A DNA stretch of 37,149 nucleotides from Gammaproteobacteria bacterium (lineage in GTDB: Bacteria; Pseudomonadota; Gammaproteobacteria; Pseudomonadales; Azotimanducaceae), in NCBI GenBank assembly GCA_026707905.1, contig JAPOVY010000153.1:1-37149 (forward strand), written 5' to 3'. Position numbers and translations under genes: made by a program. Shown piece by piece: positions 1,592 through 7,304 of the stretch; positions within the stretch are counted from its first letter, which is position 1, and every line of letters starts with the position of its first letter. Under the pieces are notes generated by a model. It was not told the DNA's origin. It did not search any database and was given only the letters and a program-made list of their open reading frames with translations.

Positions 1592-2212
1592 GTGTCGATT
1601 TCACCTGCGAATTTCCCCGAAATGACCGAGTTACCAACGTTATCGGCCGAGTTTATCGGTAGCGCTGCAAGGTTGTCGCAGTGTCCCGAAGACGATGTTG
1701 TTGAGGTCGCTTTCGTCGGTAGATCCAATGCAGGTAAGTCGAGTACGTTGAATCGAGTCGCTGCTAACAAGCGACTTGCTCGTGTGAGTAAAACCCCAGG
1801 ACGAACGCGGTTGATCAATCTGTTTGAAACCTCTTGGGGGTTTCGCATTGTTGACCTGCCTGGCTACGGTTATGCGAAAGCGAGCCAGAAAGAAAGAGCG
1901 GCTTGGAACGCCGCCGTGGACGAATACCTTGAGCAACGAACAAATTTACGAGGCCTAGTCTTGGTGATGGATGCGAGACACCCGTTGAAACCGTTTGACC
2001 AACGGATGCTCGAGTGGGCGAGTGAGCGAGTGCTGAGAGTGCTAGTCTTGCTCAACAAGGCAGACAAGCTAAAACGGAATGCGCAGATACGAACGGTTGC
2101 TGAGACTAAACATCATGTCGATACATACGAGTCGGTAACGGTACAGCTCTTTTCAGCGACGTCAGGATTGGGCTCGGATGAACTTACCCGATGGTTGACC
2201 AAATTTGTGTGA
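1592..2212 (+). CDS. engB: Ribosome biogenesis GTPase EngB/YihA
   Basis: All five G motifs of the EngB (YsxC/YihA) family are visible: P-loop GRSNAGKS at 43-50, switch I KTPGRT at 67-72, G3 DLPGYG at 88-93, G4 NKAD, and a G5-like FSATSG near the C-terminus. EngB is an essential cytoplasmic GTPase needed for large ribosomal subunit assembly. The longest frame begins with GTG at 1592. An ATG at 1622 would give a protein closer to the usual length of about 200 residues, and neither start has a clear Shine-Dalgarno sequence. The link with polA is conserved in Gammaproteobacteria, but here about 1 kb holding an unrelated gene separates them. Confidence 0.93.
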   Translation: MSISPANFPEMTELPTLSAEFIGSAARLSQCPEDDVVEVAFVGRSNAGKSSTLNRVAANKRLARVSKTPGRTRLINLFETSWGFRIVDLPGYGYAKASQKERAAWNAAVDEYLEQRTNLRGLVLVMDARHPLKPFDQRMLEWASERVLRVLVLLNKADKLKRNAQIRTVAETKHHVDTYESVTVQLFSATSGLGSDELTRWLTKFV

Positions 2213-2350
2213 GCCGTCTAGTTCCCGTGAACGGGCAAAAAAATGAATTCATCGCATGGAGTTATTTTGCCTTTTACGTAACTAGATACGAACGTTTAGA
2301 TTCGATATTGCGAATTTGCTTCGAAAAAGTAATCTGACCCAGCCACCGAA

Positions 2351-2383
2351 ACGAATAAGGTTAATTCGTATCGGAATATACGA
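2351..2383. promoter_or_regulatory. Two overlapping inverted repeats upstream of the zinc-finger gene
   Basis: ACGAAT (2351-2356) pairs with ATTCGT (2364-2369), and TCGTAT (2366-2371) pairs with ATACGA (2378-2383). The two stems share bases 2366-2369, so they cannot form together in one RNA. The ACGAA core also recurs at 2288-2293 and 2410-2415. The 228 bp between engB and the next gene therefore holds four related ACGAA/TTCGT elements. These could be operator half-sites or an RNA switch; no known regulator's consensus is recognised. Confidence 0.3.
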
Positions 2384-2440
2384 TGTCCGTACTCAATCTA
2401 GAATTGGAAACGAATCACGAGTTGACAGGAACACGGTTCG

Positions 2441-3013
2441 TTGCTTGCACCTGACTTCGATGAGCGAGTGGTCGCACTTAACAAAGCTCGTCAGAGGTGT
2501 GGATCCTGCAAGCTCGATGGTAATCACTTTAGTGAGTTAATAGCGAGCTGCCGCGTACCAGGCAAGATGATCTGCATCGAATGTGTCAATGAGTTCCATG
2601 ACATATTCCGTTCAGAGTCTAAATTTGATGAGTTGTCTCATGGTGCAGACTGCGATTTTTGTAATGTGCTCTCGAACGTAGCGGTAACTCTTATAAGAAA
2701 ATCGGACATCTGCATTTGCGATGCATGTTTGAGCATTTGTCAGGAACTTAATGGTCCTAAGTTTGCGTCTAGGAGAGCGAAGAAAGCAAAACTTCCTTTG
2801 TATTGCATACTCCTATTGATGGAGTTCGACAACCAACGCAATGTTCAAGAGCATTCAGACGCACTACTACATCGACGCCTAACAAGCAAACAGTTTATGC
2901 GAGTAATTAATGGAGGACGCATACCAAAACGATGGCGTGAGAAATTCACTGACGATGAACTAAATAATCGACTTGAGCTGTTAGAGAAGATCGTCTACTC
3001 CGCCTCATATTAA
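2441..3013 (+). CDS. Stand-alone protein with two tandem ClpX-type C4 zinc-binding domains
   Basis: A 190-residue protein with eight ordered cysteines. Domain 1 is C20-x2-C23-x21-C45-x2-C48. Domain 2 is C71-x2-C74-x18-C93-x2-C96, and its spacing equals that of the N-terminal zinc-binding domain of ClpX. The flanking residues (ICDAC followed by a helix with CQEL) also resemble ClpX. There is no Walker motif or AAA+ domain. Residues 105-190 are charged and probably helical, with no family I recognise. In ClpX this domain dimerises and binds adaptors and some substrates, so a role in protein turnover is possible but inferred. The start is TTG at 2441, with AGGAA nine bases upstream; an in-frame stop lies at 2423, and GTG at 2468 is the alternative. 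The gene interrupts the engB-polA neighbourhood. Confidence 0.7.
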   Translation: MLAPDFDERVVALNKARQRCGSCKLDGNHFSELIASCRVPGKMICIECVNEFHDIFRSESKFDELSHGADCDFCNVLSNVAVTLIRKSDICICDACLSICQELNGPKFASRRAKKAKLPLYCILLLMEFDNQRNVQEHSDALLHRRLTSKQFMRVINGGRIPKRWREKFTDDELNNRLELLEKIVYSASY

Positions 3014-3273
3014 TTCCTCCGATAAGCTTTTTTGTATGGTAGCACTTATCTGTTCTCTGTTATATCCTCTCTGATCGTATAGATTGAGATCGCTTCGAGA
3101 AGATCACATCTTCGGTGTAGAACACCGTTCACCTGCATCGTGAGCATGGAATTTCCACCCCTGATTTCACTTTTAGCACCTTGATGCGATTAACGGGTCG
3201 TGGAATCTCTTAGATGCGGTCCTATGGTTGCGGCGCATGCGATAGATATGAATTCTGCGATAGGTCTGAGGAA

Positions 3274-5973
3274 TTAGTGTGCGGCGGACCAGTTTTGCGC
3301 CACGCCAAGATCGACTTCCAAAGGTACCGCAAGCTCGACTGCTGTGCGCATCAGCGCGGGAATTCGCTCCTTCGCTTCTTCTAAATCGCTCTCCGCGACT
3401 TCGAAAACAAGCTCGTCGTGAACCTGCAAGATCATCTCGATATCTAGCTCTGAGGCGTTTAACCACTCGCCGACGCAGATCGTGGCCTTCTTGATGATGT
3501 CTGCAGCGCTACCTTGGACTGGTGCATTGATCGCCAGGCGTTCTGCCGCTTGCCGCACCATCGGGTTACGCGCATTGATATCGCGAAGGTAAATTCGACG
3601 TCCGTAAATCGTTTGGACGTAGCCTTTTTGTTTCCCATGTTCTTTCGTAGCTTGAACATAGTCTTGAACGTTTGGATAACGGTTGAAATATGCGTCGATG
3701 TACTCTTTCGCTTGATACTGCGGAATCTCTAGATTTCGTGCGAGACCGAACGCCGACATGCCATACATCAAACCGAAATTGATCGCTTTCGCACTGCGTC
3801 TTTGATCCTCGGTTACGGAATCCAAGGAAATCGCGAAAACTTCCGCTGCCGTCGCCTGATGGATATCGACGCGGTTCATGAACGCTTCAGTGAGTCCTGG
3901 ATCGTCCGTTAGATGTGCCATAACCCGAAGTTCAATTTGTGAATAGTCAGCAGTGAGGAGCAGGTGTTCAGACGGGGCAACAAATGCTTCGCGAACTCGT
4001 CGCCCATCAGTAGTGCGAATCGGGATGTTCTGTAGATTAGGGTTCACCGAAGCAAGCCGTCCGGTTGAAGCGTTCGCTTGCGAATAGGAAGTATGGATGC
4101 GTTTAGTCGTCGGGTTTATTTCTCGCGACAACCCAGCTATATAGGTAGAAATCAGCTTCGTCGTTGCGCGATAGTCGAGGATGACTTGAGGTAATTCGTG
4201 ATTGTCGGTCAATCCGCTAAGCACTTCTTCCTTGGTGGATCGACTACCACTTTTTGATGCGCGGGGTGCCGGTAACAGCAGTTCGTCATACAGTATGACT
4301 TCTAGCTGTTTAGGGGAACCAAGATTGAATTCTCGGCCTGCCAGTTCATATGCACGCTCGACCAGCGAGTCCTTTCGTGCCTCAAGTTCGTTTCGTAGCG
4401 ACTCTAAGACATCAGGATCAACTAAGGTGCCATGGTGTTCCATGCCCCAGAGAAATGGTTCAAGCGGAATCTCGACATCCGCATAGATCGACCGTAGGGT
4501 CTTTATTTCGGCCAATCTCGTGGACATTTCCTTGTAGAGCGCTTCGATAGTGAGGACTTGCTCACTTGCGTAATGTCGCACTGCGGTTGGATCAGCGGCG
4601 TCGAAACTAATGCGTTTTGCGCCAGCTCCAAGCAAGTCAGTTGAATCTTTGATTGTGCGGTCGAGAACGGTTCCGGCAATTCCTTTCAGACGATGCTCAC
4701 CATGGCCGACGCTATTCAAGACATACGACATTAGCATGATGTCATGAACGGTAGTTCGTACGTTGACCCCGAAACCTTGAAGGGTATGACGAAGTGATTT
4801 GATGTCGTGTGTGACAAGCGTCAGATCAGATCTTTCGAATATATCGCGGAGTTTCGACAACGCTTCGTCCGCAGACAGCATCGACTCCGTCAATGATGAT
4901 CCACATGGGACATAACAAACACGATCGCCTCCGATGCAGAGACTCAATCCGTGTAGCGTGTGATCTAGCGTCGTATGTCTAGAAGTAACAGCGAATATGG
5001 CGAATGTACCGGCCGTCGATATTTCATCTACTACTTCATCTAATTGTTGGACGCTTGTTAGTACGTCAACTTCAGTCTCAGATACCGAAACTTCTGGGGT
5101 CGGTTCGGTTACGCCTGCATCTTCATTGAATTGGTCCCTCAATTGCCGAAATTCATACTTTTGGCAGAGCTCAAGCAACTCAGCGAGATTCATAGGTTGA
5201 TGTTCGAGGTTGTCGATTGTGTGCGCCATGTCGACATCGCACTTAATCGTCGCGAGCTCTTGCGCCAACGGTAGCTGATCTAGATGTGCACGCAGTTTCT
5301 CTCCGACCTTGCCTTTTACATCAGCCGATGTGGCAATGATGGTCTCAAGATCACCGTGAGTCTGTAACCACTTCGCGGCAGTCTTTTTCCCAACGCCAGG
5401 GATACCAGGTATGTTGTCAACTTTATCGCCCATCAGCGCAAGATAGTCGACGATCTGTTCGGGTTTGACCTCGAACTTTTCCTCTACCCCGTCTGGATCT
5501 AACGTGTTGTCGCTCATCGTGTCCTGTAAATAGACGTGGGCTGTCACAAGTTGGGCTAGATCTTTGTCTGAGCTCGAAATCAATGTGTCGCGTTTCGCCG
5601 CAGACGCTTGCGTTGCAAGCGTGCCAATTACGTCGTCCGCTTCCACGTCTGCGACTTCGAGTCGTGGTAATCCCATTGCGTCTACGAATTCATACACGGG
5701 TGCGAATTGCACTAATAGGTCGTCCTCGATCGGAGGACGATTCGCCTTGTATTCAGGGAATATCGCGTCGCGAAACGTCTTTCCTGGCCCGTCAAACACG
5801 ACAACAACCGTTCCAGTCGGATTTTCGCGAACAAGCTTCCTGAGCATCATGACGACACCACGGATCGCGTGCGTAGGGAAGCCGCGGCTGGTACGCATCT
5901 CAGGAAGTGCGTTATAAGCTCGAAATAGGTATTGCGTACCGTCCACTAGAATTAAAGGCTTCTCTAGGTTCAT
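3274..5973 (-). CDS. polA: DNA polymerase I with degenerate proofreading domain
   Basis: An 899-residue family A polymerase. The N-terminal 5' nuclease is intact (DGTQYLFRAY at 11-20, EADDVIG at 111-117, SSSDKDLAQL, GDKVDNIPGIPGVGKKTA at 182-199). Polymerase motifs are present: A DYSQIELR at 676-683, B RRSAKAINFGLMYG at 725-738, C VHDE at 851-854. The middle domain (about 305-490) aligns with the Klenow 3'-5' exonuclease, but all four catalytic carboxylates are replaced. The DTE of ExoI is F327-A-V329, the ExoII Asp is L394, and the ExoIII Asp is Q472 (YASEQ). It should polymerise, remove primers and act in repair, but not proofread. It starts head-to-head with the DUF2782 gene with no spacer. 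Confidence 0.96.
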   Translation of the reverse strand: MNLEKPLILVDGTQYLFRAYNALPEMRTSRGFPTHAIRGVVMMLRKLVRENPTGTVVVVFDGPGKTFRDAIFPEYKANRPPIEDDLLVQFAPVYEFVDAMGLPRLEVADVEADDVIGTLATQASAAKRDTLISSSDKDLAQLVTAHVYLQDTMSDNTLDPDGVEEKFEVKPEQIVDYLALMGDKVDNIPGIPGVGKKTAAKWLQTHGDLETIIATSADVKGKVGEKLRAHLDQLPLAQELATIKCDVDMAHTIDNLEHQPMNLAELLELCQKYEFRQLRDQFNEDAGVTEPTPEVSVSETEVDVLTSVQQLDEVVDEISTAGTFAIFAVTSRHTTLDHTLHGLSLCIGGDRVCYVPCGSSLTESMLSADEALSKLRDIFERSDLTLVTHDIKSLRHTLQGFGVNVRTTVHDIMLMSYVLNSVGHGEHRLKGIAGTVLDRTIKDSTDLLGAGAKRISFDAADPTAVRHYASEQVLTIEALYKEMSTRLAEIKTLRSIYADVEIPLEPFLWGMEHHGTLVDPDVLESLRNELEARKDSLVERAYELAGREFNLGSPKQLEVILYDELLLPAPRASKSGSRSTKEEVLSGLTDNHELPQVILDYRATTKLISTYIAGLSREINPTTKRIHTSYSQANASTGRLASVNPNLQNIPIRTTDGRRVREAFVAPSEHLLLTADYSQIELRVMAHLTDDPGLTEAFMNRVDIHQATAAEVFAISLDSVTEDQRRSAKAINFGLMYGMSAFGLARNLEIPQYQAKEYIDAYFNRYPNVQDYVQATKEHGKQKGYVQTIYGRRIYLRDINARNPMVRQAAERLAINAPVQGSAADIIKKATICVGEWLNASELDIEMILQVHDELVFEVAESDLEEAKERIPALMRTAVELAVPLEVDLGVAQNWSAAH

Positions 5974-6309
5974 GTGTCGTCAGTTCCTATGTTGGGTATT
6001 GCGAACTGGATCGTTAAGCGTTGGCTTGGCTTATTCGTGGTGATGGCTGTCATGTGGACACCCGTCGCGGCACAGGAAGACTCCAAAACCGCACCTACGC
6101 GAAATCAGCGGGGTCCCGATGTCGTGCTCCGCGAAACGCCTGAACGCACGATCTACGAATATCGTCAAAACGGTCAATTAACAATGATAAAAGTCGTGCC
6201 GAAGAAGGGTAAACCATATTTTTTGGTTCCTGCTGACCGCACTGAACACTACGGTGAACTCGACCGCGTGACGCGACTTAAGCCTCAATGGGTGATTAAG
6301 GCTTTTTAA
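5974..6309 (+). CDS. DUF2782 family exported protein
   Basis: A 111-residue protein with an N-terminal hydrophobic segment ending in VAAQE (about residues 18-34), probably a signal peptide or membrane anchor. The conserved DUF2782 region follows: TIYEYRQNGQLTMIKVVPKKG, then PYFLVPADR, then PQWVIKAF at the end. Function is unknown. The family typically sits between polA and thrB in Gammaproteobacteria, as here. GTG at 5974 directly abuts the polA start; ATG at 5989 is a good alternative and still leaves the signal segment intact. thrB begins 8 bp after the stop, so the two are almost certainly cotranscribed. Confidence 0.85.
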   Translation: MSSVPMLGIANWIVKRWLGLFVVMAVMWTPVAAQEDSKTAPTRNQRGPDVVLRETPERTIYEYRQNGQLTMIKVVPKKGKPYFLVPADRTEHYGELDRVTRLKPQWVIKAF

Positions 6310-6317
6310 ACTCATAC

Positions 6318-7304
6318 ATGGCCGTTATTACCCATCTCAATGCGGACGATATCGCTCAGACGCTTTCCGAGTATCCAGTCGGAACCCTTGATGGCTTCAA
6401 AGAAGCTTCCGAAGGTATTGAAAACACGAACTACTTCGTGCGTACGTCTCACGAAGACGGTAGGACGGCGGAATACGTACTTACATTAATTGAGGAAGCA
6501 AATGGTTCAGAATCTAACCTGGATACAGTGGTCAAGATTCTGGATACATGCGTGGCCGCAGGACTACCTGTGCCCCACGTCATTCGAACGATAAACGGGG
6601 CATCGGAAGCTCGGTTATTCGATAAACCGGCGTTACTCTGCAGCAAACTGGACGGTATGCATGTGGTCAATCCGGTTCGATCGCAATGTGCAGCGATCGG
6701 TCGATTCTTGGCGAGATTTCATGCCGCAACGGCACCATTAGAGAACGAGGTCGGTTCATACGTACGCGATAGCGACTGGTTGGCATCGAAGACAGGTACT
6801 GTCAGGTTCGATATCTCATTAGCTGATCGAGCGGATCTTGAAGCGACGCTTCAGACGGTCATTGACCTGTTAGCCCGTACCGATGTCGCAACTTTACCGC
6901 AGTCCGTGATTCATGCCGACCTATTTCTCGACAATGCACTTTTCAATACGTACGGACTGTCCGGTATCCTCGATTTTCACCAGGCTGGACGCGGGTACTG
7001 TGTGTATGACTTGGCGGTCGCGATTAACGATTGGTGCCGTAATGGTGATTCGATAGATCGAGAGCGTGCGATCGAGTTGCTCCGTGGATATTCGTCCATC
7101 CGTGACATAACTCAAGCCGAACTCTGGTTTTTACCGACGTTTTTGCTCTACGGTGCATTAACGTTCTGGTTGTCGCGCCTACTGACGCACGTGCGTACGG
7201 ATTTGCCCGCTCACTATCCGATGCGAGACCCTAACGAGCTTAAGGATTTGGCGAAGCGTCACACGCGTTCACCTTTCAGTGTCGTGCGTGAAAGTCTGCT
7301 CTAA
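6318..7304 (+). CDS. thrB: Homoserine kinase, APH-fold type
   Basis: A 328-residue protein of the aminoglycoside-phosphotransferase/choline-kinase fold, in the ThrB form found in Pseudomonas and relatives rather than the GHMP form of E. coli. Visible motifs are the N-terminal FKEASEGIENTNYFV strand-turn, the catalytic-loop motif HADLFLDN at 199-206, and the metal-binding LDFHQAG at 218-224. The enzyme phosphorylates L-homoserine with ATP in threonine synthesis. The polA-DUF2782-thrB order supports the call. The last 4 bp overlap the convergent egtD gene. Confidence 0.92.
   Translation: MAVITHLNADDIAQTLSEYPVGTLDGFKEASEGIENTNYFVRTSHEDGRTAEYVLTLIEEANGSESNLDTVVKILDTCVAAGLPVPHVIRTINGASEARLFDKPALLCSKLDGMHVVNPVRSQCAAIGRFLARFHAATAPLENEVGSYVRDSDWLASKTGTVRFDISLADRADLEATLQTVIDLLARTDVATLPQSVIHADLFLDNALFNTYGLSGILDFHQAGRGYCVYDLAVAINDWCRNGDSIDRERAIELLRGYSSIRDITQAELWFLPTFLLYGALTFWLSRLLTHVRTDLPAHYPMRDPNELKDLAKRHTRSPFSVVRESLL

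Follow-up and report, generated by a model that had tools for sequence, protein, structure and literature searches.

A stand-alone protein with two ClpX-like zinc-finger units encoded between yihA and polA: a possible mimic of the ClpX docking domain

ClpX carries an N-terminal C4-type zinc-binding domain (ZBD; Pfam zf-C4_ClpX, PF06689; structures 1ovx and 2ds5), the docking site at which adaptors, e.g., RssB and SspB, hand over substrates to ClpXP. According to passages of one report, the isolated ZBD supplied in trans inhibits the RssB-mediated degradation of sigma-S by ClpXP, and SspB does likewise (PMC7226468); on that account a free ZBD can compete. CsfB (Gin), an anti-sigma factor of Bacillus subtilis, is described as a small stand-alone treble-clef protein with one finger per chain, forming a dimer closest to the ClpX N-terminal domain, and the corresponding passages question whether the two share ancestry or partners (PMC5890618). 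In part of another report, zf-C4_ClpX is also found as a domain accessory to sigma factors of cyanobacteria (PMC11119718). Finally, the NCBI name 'ClpX C4-type zinc finger protein' is given to proteins, among them plasmid-encoded ones (e.g., WP_282835466.1 and WP_327166968.1), that have the finger without AAA+ and no stated function; compared by name, they resemble the protein presented here. A search of titles and abstract openings in the open-access literature found no dedicated study of stand-alone or tandem ClpX zinc-finger proteins.

The stretch of DNA analysed here (the window, 37,149 nucleotides) encodes the protein P0001, with the following parts:

2441..3013, + strand: open frame of P0001, a stand-alone double CxxC...CxxC zinc-finger protein of 190 aa, with matches to PF06689 and NCBIfam ClpX
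2498..2584, + strand: finger 1, C20-x2-C23-x21-C45-x2-C48 (PF06689 E 0.28 alone); from residue 35 onward it has a counterpart in the G007 remnant
2651..2728, + strand: finger 2, C71-x2-C74-x18-C93-x2-C96, assigned to the ClpX ZBD type (PF06689 E 3.8e-4 alone)
2753..3010, + strand: C-terminal 86 residues, possibly helical, for which no relative was found

The frame starts with TTG, is open for 190 codons and is preceded by an in-frame stop at 2423. Alternative in-frame starts are GTG at 2468, giving 181 aa with both fingers retained, and ATG at 2567, giving 148 aa with finger 1 truncated. The twelve cysteines occupy positions 20, 23, 37, 45, 48, 71, 74, 91, 93, 96, 100, and 122. The original prediction of eight cysteines in two CxxC...CxxC units proved real (20/23/45/48 and 71/74/93/96), leaving C37, C91, C100, and C122 as extra ones, and the predicted 21 and 18 residues between the knuckles were confirmed by counting in the sequence. 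The predicted lack of a Walker motif or AAA+ domain also held, as the Walker A pattern GxxxxGK[ST] was absent from P0001 in the motif scan and Pfam gave no AAA match. With no AAA+ module detected, P0001 is, by its sequence, no ClpX; it differs from it further in its tandem units, the first spacing of 21 and the unmatched C-terminal 86 residues, while the C4 arrangement is common to both.

The label of ClpX type, predicted for the units, stood for the second and was weak for the first. Whole P0001 matched PF06689 along two stretches with E 4.5e-4, and its 20.5 bits stayed below the gathering threshold of 27 bits, so that by the curated score the protein would fall outside zf-C4_ClpX, though it may still work like the domain. 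It matched NCBIfam ClpX with E 6e-5, the best stretch covering model positions 6-46 of 418. Scanned alone, finger 2 retained its PF06689 match (E 3.8e-4), whereas for finger 1 (E 0.28) FYVE (0.063) and B-box (0.13) ranked ahead. In an HMM of our own making, built from nine distinct ClpX fingers, the score of finger 2 was equalled by 1 of 1000 shuffles that held every cysteine in place, and that of finger 1 by 6 of 1000. Finger 2 has the CxxC-x(18-19)-CxxC arrangement with a ClpX-like core and shares with E. coli ClpX the 18-residue spacing, CxFC, the LI pair ahead of the second knuckle and a similar hydrophobic stretch after the last cysteine; it is followed by CLSICQEL, which resembles the ClpX helix at the same place. 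Both fingers have diverged from the ClpX of their own genome, and the glycine of the ClpX LIAG is missing from each (LIAS, LIRK). The PF06689 searches of whole genomes at E <= 1 did not report the gene, nor was it among the matches listed in such a search of 150 genomes at E <= 0.001, the E-values in both being scaled to the whole genome. Among solved structures searched with phmmer (PDB), the ClpX domain 1ovx (E 0.2) ranked behind 2v9k (E 0.015), a human protein unrelated to it, whose alignment covers the second CxxC knuckle of finger 2 and leaves out the first. Altogether, the assignment of finger 2 to the ClpX type appears well supported and that of finger 1 probable, not proven.

As the leading explanation we tentatively put forward, as possible rather than probable, that P0001 is a free mimic of the ClpX docking domain that modulates ClpXP via the adaptors or the ClpX zinc domain. 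Several other readings were weighed against it.

The first concerns the C-terminal part, which would make P0001 a DNA- or RNA-binding regulator combining a zinc knuckle pair with a helix-turn-helix-like region at residues about 135-168. The segment LLHRRLTSKQFMRVINGGRIPKRWREKF looks, by eye, like a Cro-like helix-turn-helix, the C-terminus is basic (18 K/R versus 10 D/E, counted manually), and the better of two AlphaFold2 single-sequence models (pLDDT 37.7 and 53.4) contains, at low confidence, five helices. Against this, the C-terminal 86 residues matched nothing in Pfam at E <= 10, the helix-turn-helix models included, and Foldseek with the pLDDT 53.4 model returned nothing significant (best E 1.9), with no helix-turn-helix title among the 18 weak matches. 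The models and the Foldseek matches were discarded as uninformative. Among 390 genomes of the order, the C-terminus matched its own genome alone, and the phage search gave nothing beyond a pair of records, both from one phage, at E 7. A nucleic acid-binding function is, in our judgement, quite improbable.

The P0001 gene lies between two housekeeping genes, presumed to be yihA (EngB) and polA:

1592..2212, + strand: presumed yihA/engB GTPase gene (ORF), upstream neighbour, matched in 17 of 18 genomes of the genus, own included
3274..5973, − strand: presumed polA, DNA polymerase I (ORF), convergent neighbour, adjoining yihA in 15 of 16 other loci
2213..3273, no strand: inserted DNA that separates the stop codons of yihA and polA, two convergent genes, and holds the P0001 gene

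The two genes were adjacent in all 15 other loci of the genus that held both, the 16th lacking polA on the stretch fetched, and in 11 of the 15 their stop codons overlapped by 4 or 7 bp. The stops are 1061 bp apart in the window versus 203 bp in G007, 79 bp in G124 and 53 bp in G156, and the insertion has a GC content of 0.41-0.45 versus 0.50-0.51 in the neighbours. In the YihA+PolA tree, which did not include G154, the window's genome (G000) grouped as ((G000,G124),(G156,G007)), with inner supports of 0.89 and 0.91 and a support of 0.999 for the four species; G040 branched next. Since the stops overlap in this outgroup, DNA was inserted at the yihA-polA junction before the four-species split. 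The distance of 111 bp in G150 indicates that a gap can arise there elsewhere too. The interruption of a conserved housekeeping block, as predicted, was thus found, with the insertion placed at the level of the clade. The accompanying claim of a recent gain fell: the G007 gap keeps, in matching position and orientation, a remnant of 28 residues with 57% identity to P0001 residues 35-62, interrupted by TGA, so the gene predates the four-species split and is not brand new. Judged from these sequences, it is decayed in G007 and intact only in the window's genome, while the gaps of G124 and G156 are short and show no recognisable trace of it.

The insertion revealed few other features. A repeated mobile element was rejected, as no convincing second copy of the gene turned up in the 18 genus genomes, own included (next best E 0.03). 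The repeats at the locus are limited to a direct pair of 12 nt and an imperfect inverted pair of 24 nt (83%), the latter of which joins window positions 2999-3022, the last bases of the gene, with 3265-3288 at the polA 3' end; it is either due to chance or a trace of the insertion's origin. The single promoter-like site falls within the P0001 ORF, and no terminator-like site was found for the gene. For lack of an Rfam match, known RNAs were discarded, including Spot 42, which in E. coli lies between polA and yihA; a known anti-phage defence gene was discarded for lack of a PADLOC match to P0001.

These findings bear on the possibility that the gene, once acquired, has lost its function and is decaying, its frame still open by chance. 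The loss or reduction of the sister copies, the TTG start, the position of the promoter-like site, the missing terminator and the low GC would fit such decay. The polA dS between the window's genome and G124 is 0.76, and to G007 1.58, which places the synonymous divergence on the window genome's branch at about 0.4 to 0.8. In simulations of neutral drift (5000 runs per divergence level), the ORF was still open in 13.7% of runs at 0.1 substitutions per site, 2.8% at 0.2, 0.96% at 0.3, 0.24% at 0.5, and 0.02% at 0.8; it was open with all eight cysteines in 2.4%, 0.1%, and 0.02% at the first three levels and in none at 0.5 and 0.8. The simulation assumes vertical presence since the ancestor shared with G007 and ignores indels, the counting of which would lower these figures. 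Chance retention of 190 open codons with eight cysteines over the divergence of this branch is very unlikely, and even 0.1 substitutions per site leaves just the above 2.4%. The 16 aligned codons of the G007 remnant differ at 2 first, 3 second, and 6 third positions, which, with so few sites, fits selection before the decay. A recent re-acquisition of the gene would evade the retention argument and could give an open frame without selection. We regard decay as improbable, slightly more so than a nucleic acid-binding role.

No full-length homologue of P0001 was found in the plasmid or phage collections, in viral_contigs (2 pattern stretches, none confirmed) or in genome_contigs (15 stretches, none confirmed). 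In the overlapping genome samples, matches came from 4 of 150 genomes of the family (own, the G007 remnant and two ClpX genes; E <= 1e-3), 2 of 390 of the order (own and G007; E <= 1e-4), 1 of 369 of the class (own only; E <= 1e-5) and 1 of 398 of the phylum (own only; E <= 1e-4). PHROGs gave weak matches only (phrog_6797, E 0.081). A degenerate pattern derived from the motif ICxxCVxEFHD matched one viral contig, which was rejected as a relative; because its open frame lacks the first CxxC knuckle, the match was taken as a chance one.

Proteins of a similar build occur in the wider family. Among the loci fetched from it, six further double-finger genes without AAA+ were detected in five genomes:

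L083:4725-5447: stand-alone double-finger protein
L084:4953-5675 and 5842-6588: two stand-alone double-finger proteins side by side
L085:5006-5950: stand-alone double-finger protein
L087:4360-5097: stand-alone double-finger protein
L088:4431-5528: stand-alone double-finger protein

Like P0001, they combine two ClpX-type fingers with no AAA+, and they score far better on PF06689 (E 3e-20 to 3e-33 in the five scanned, L087 being left out). Their extra part is N-terminal to the fingers and, by eye, shares a VIARExGFxSW-like motif, whereas that of P0001 is C-terminal and unrelated. Stand-alone proteins with a single finger are encoded in the loci L086, L089-L092, and L094. The single-contig genome G062 (L091) has at least 8 PF06689 matches versus one in most of the 150 genomes, among the matches listed. 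The protein of L092:4847-5266 (+ strand) joins one ClpX-type finger to a C-terminal part that resembles a helix-turn-helix and weakly matches HTH_AsnC and DUF6362, which suggests that some stand-alone ClpX-finger proteins may bind DNA. The original prediction had put P0001 forward as its best candidate for something undescribed; it is not unique in kind, with double-finger proteins without AAA+ found adjoining clpX in sister species as well as elsewhere in the family. As far as the searches show, such proteins are an existing, in the literature uncharacterised kind, to which P0001 adds a variant.

Nearly as likely as the docking-mimic reading is that P0001 is a treble-clef zinc protein of ClpX-like fold which serves another partner, such as a sigma factor, makes no contact with ClpXP and uses its C-terminus as a second binding module. 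CsfB, a ClpX-like treble clef that, in the passages describing it, binds sigma factors, sets the precedent (PMC5890618); the accessory zf-C4_ClpX domains of cyanobacterial sigma factors point the same way in the part of the report concerned (PMC11119718), as does the L092 protein. A diverged finger 1 and altered LIAG stretches would also agree with such a role. This reading is weakened by the C-terminus, which is without a known regulator domain (Pfam and the 390 order genomes), and by double fingers linked to clpX within the clade, which point to ClpX as source and context.

These clpX-linked fingers are encoded by a microprotein ORF located between clpP and clpX in 4 of the 18 genus genomes (by PF06689):

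L097:1996-2301, + strand: clpX-linked microprotein of G124, two ClpX-type fingers
L098:1979-2245, − strand: clpX-linked microprotein of G156, two ClpX-type fingers
L099:2181-2444, − strand: clpX-linked microprotein of G007, two ClpX-type fingers
L100:169-510, − strand: clpX-linked microprotein of G154, two ClpX-type fingers

The microproteins (88-114 aa) share with P0001 the genus, the two ClpX-type fingers and the lack of AAA+, and differ from it in the spacing of 19, the missing C-terminal domain and the location. Their fingers and leader residues repeat those of ClpX itself, the ~20-50 bp ahead of the ORF resemble those ahead of clpX, and in G154 the linker between the fingers is the clpX leader; the ORF is evidently, by these resemblances, a duplicate of the clpX 5' end. 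The dN/dS values, with dS near saturation, were 0.33/1.31 (about 0.25) for G124-G156, 0.38/1.38 (about 0.28) for G124-G007 and 0.33/2.26 (about 0.15) for G156-G007; at about 0.15-0.28 they put the microproteins of these three species under purifying selection. In the window's genome, clpP and clpX lie on one contiguous stretch, 158 bp apart as in the outgroup G040, and the microprotein is missing between them; the tree makes a loss in this genome probable. Hence, each of the four closest species yielded exactly one intact double-finger gene. The pattern is suggestive, but with n = 4 it has a chance of about one in four given the totals, and more diverged genes may have been missed. A recent copying of P0001 from the microprotein was rejected: pairwise scores did not favour the microproteins, and the spacings of 21 and 18, differing from the 19 in the microproteins and the genome's own ClpX, disfavour descent from either.

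Two further arrangements were noticed around clpX. Upstream of clpX, G081 carries an ORF of 96 codons with a single finger (L027:913-1200, + strand), which may represent the same trend arising independently. The clpX 5' end is present a second time in G037, immediately upstream of clpP and within a single open frame of 313 codons (L093:3985-4923, + strand), from which the ClpX zinc domain may be translated as a fusion to ClpP, a separate ClpP start being also possible; the ordinary clpX follows at 5036-6328.

To return to the docking mimic, the ClpX-type finger or fingers of P0001 would adopt a treble-clef fold, associate among themselves or with the ClpX ZBD, and present the type of surface at which ClpX adaptors and ZBD-dependent substrates dock. 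P0001 might then divert adaptors as an anti-adaptor-like decoy, or it might itself be an adaptor and deliver a partner bound by its C-terminus to ClpXP. The genome has an ordinary clpX and encodes an SspB (E 9.2e-27) with the C-terminal end LPSHLRLVKD, which is close to the ClpX-binding tail of E. coli SspB. The inhibition by the ZBD in trans, together with ClpX and SspB in the same genome, means that a tandem ZBD-like protein could be a decoy or an adaptor. That P0001 is expressed, binds zinc, dimerises and touches ClpX or adaptors is inferred, as is the direction of its effect.

In favour of the mimic, finger 2 matches the ClpX ZBD more closely than its cysteines alone would account for, a clpX-linked double-ZBD microprotein arose in the same clade, evidently from the clpX 5' end, and the frame has stayed open over a divergence at which neutral drift, as simulated, would disrupt it. 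Against it, finger 1 alone is not significantly ClpX-like, the whole-genome PF06689 searches missed the gene, and the gene is not near clpX; the diverged fingers, the lost LIAG glycine and the CsfB precedent also count against it.

A broader scenario, which we consider unlikely, is that this small gammaproteobacterial clade arrived on two occasions at tandem ClpX docking domains which are free, lack the motor and serve as dedicated ClpXP regulators, once as the copy of the clpX 5' end and once as the yihA-polA gene with a cargo-binding tail, the two replacing each other between sister species. If true, a free tandem ClpX zinc domain would be a new way of tuning what ClpXP degrades, and the clpX-linked version, apparently a copied clpX start, would show how such regulators arise. 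P0001 and the microproteins are small enough for in vitro work with purified ClpXP, and of the two finds the one derived from clpX, in the clpP-clpX gap, may lend itself better to testing.
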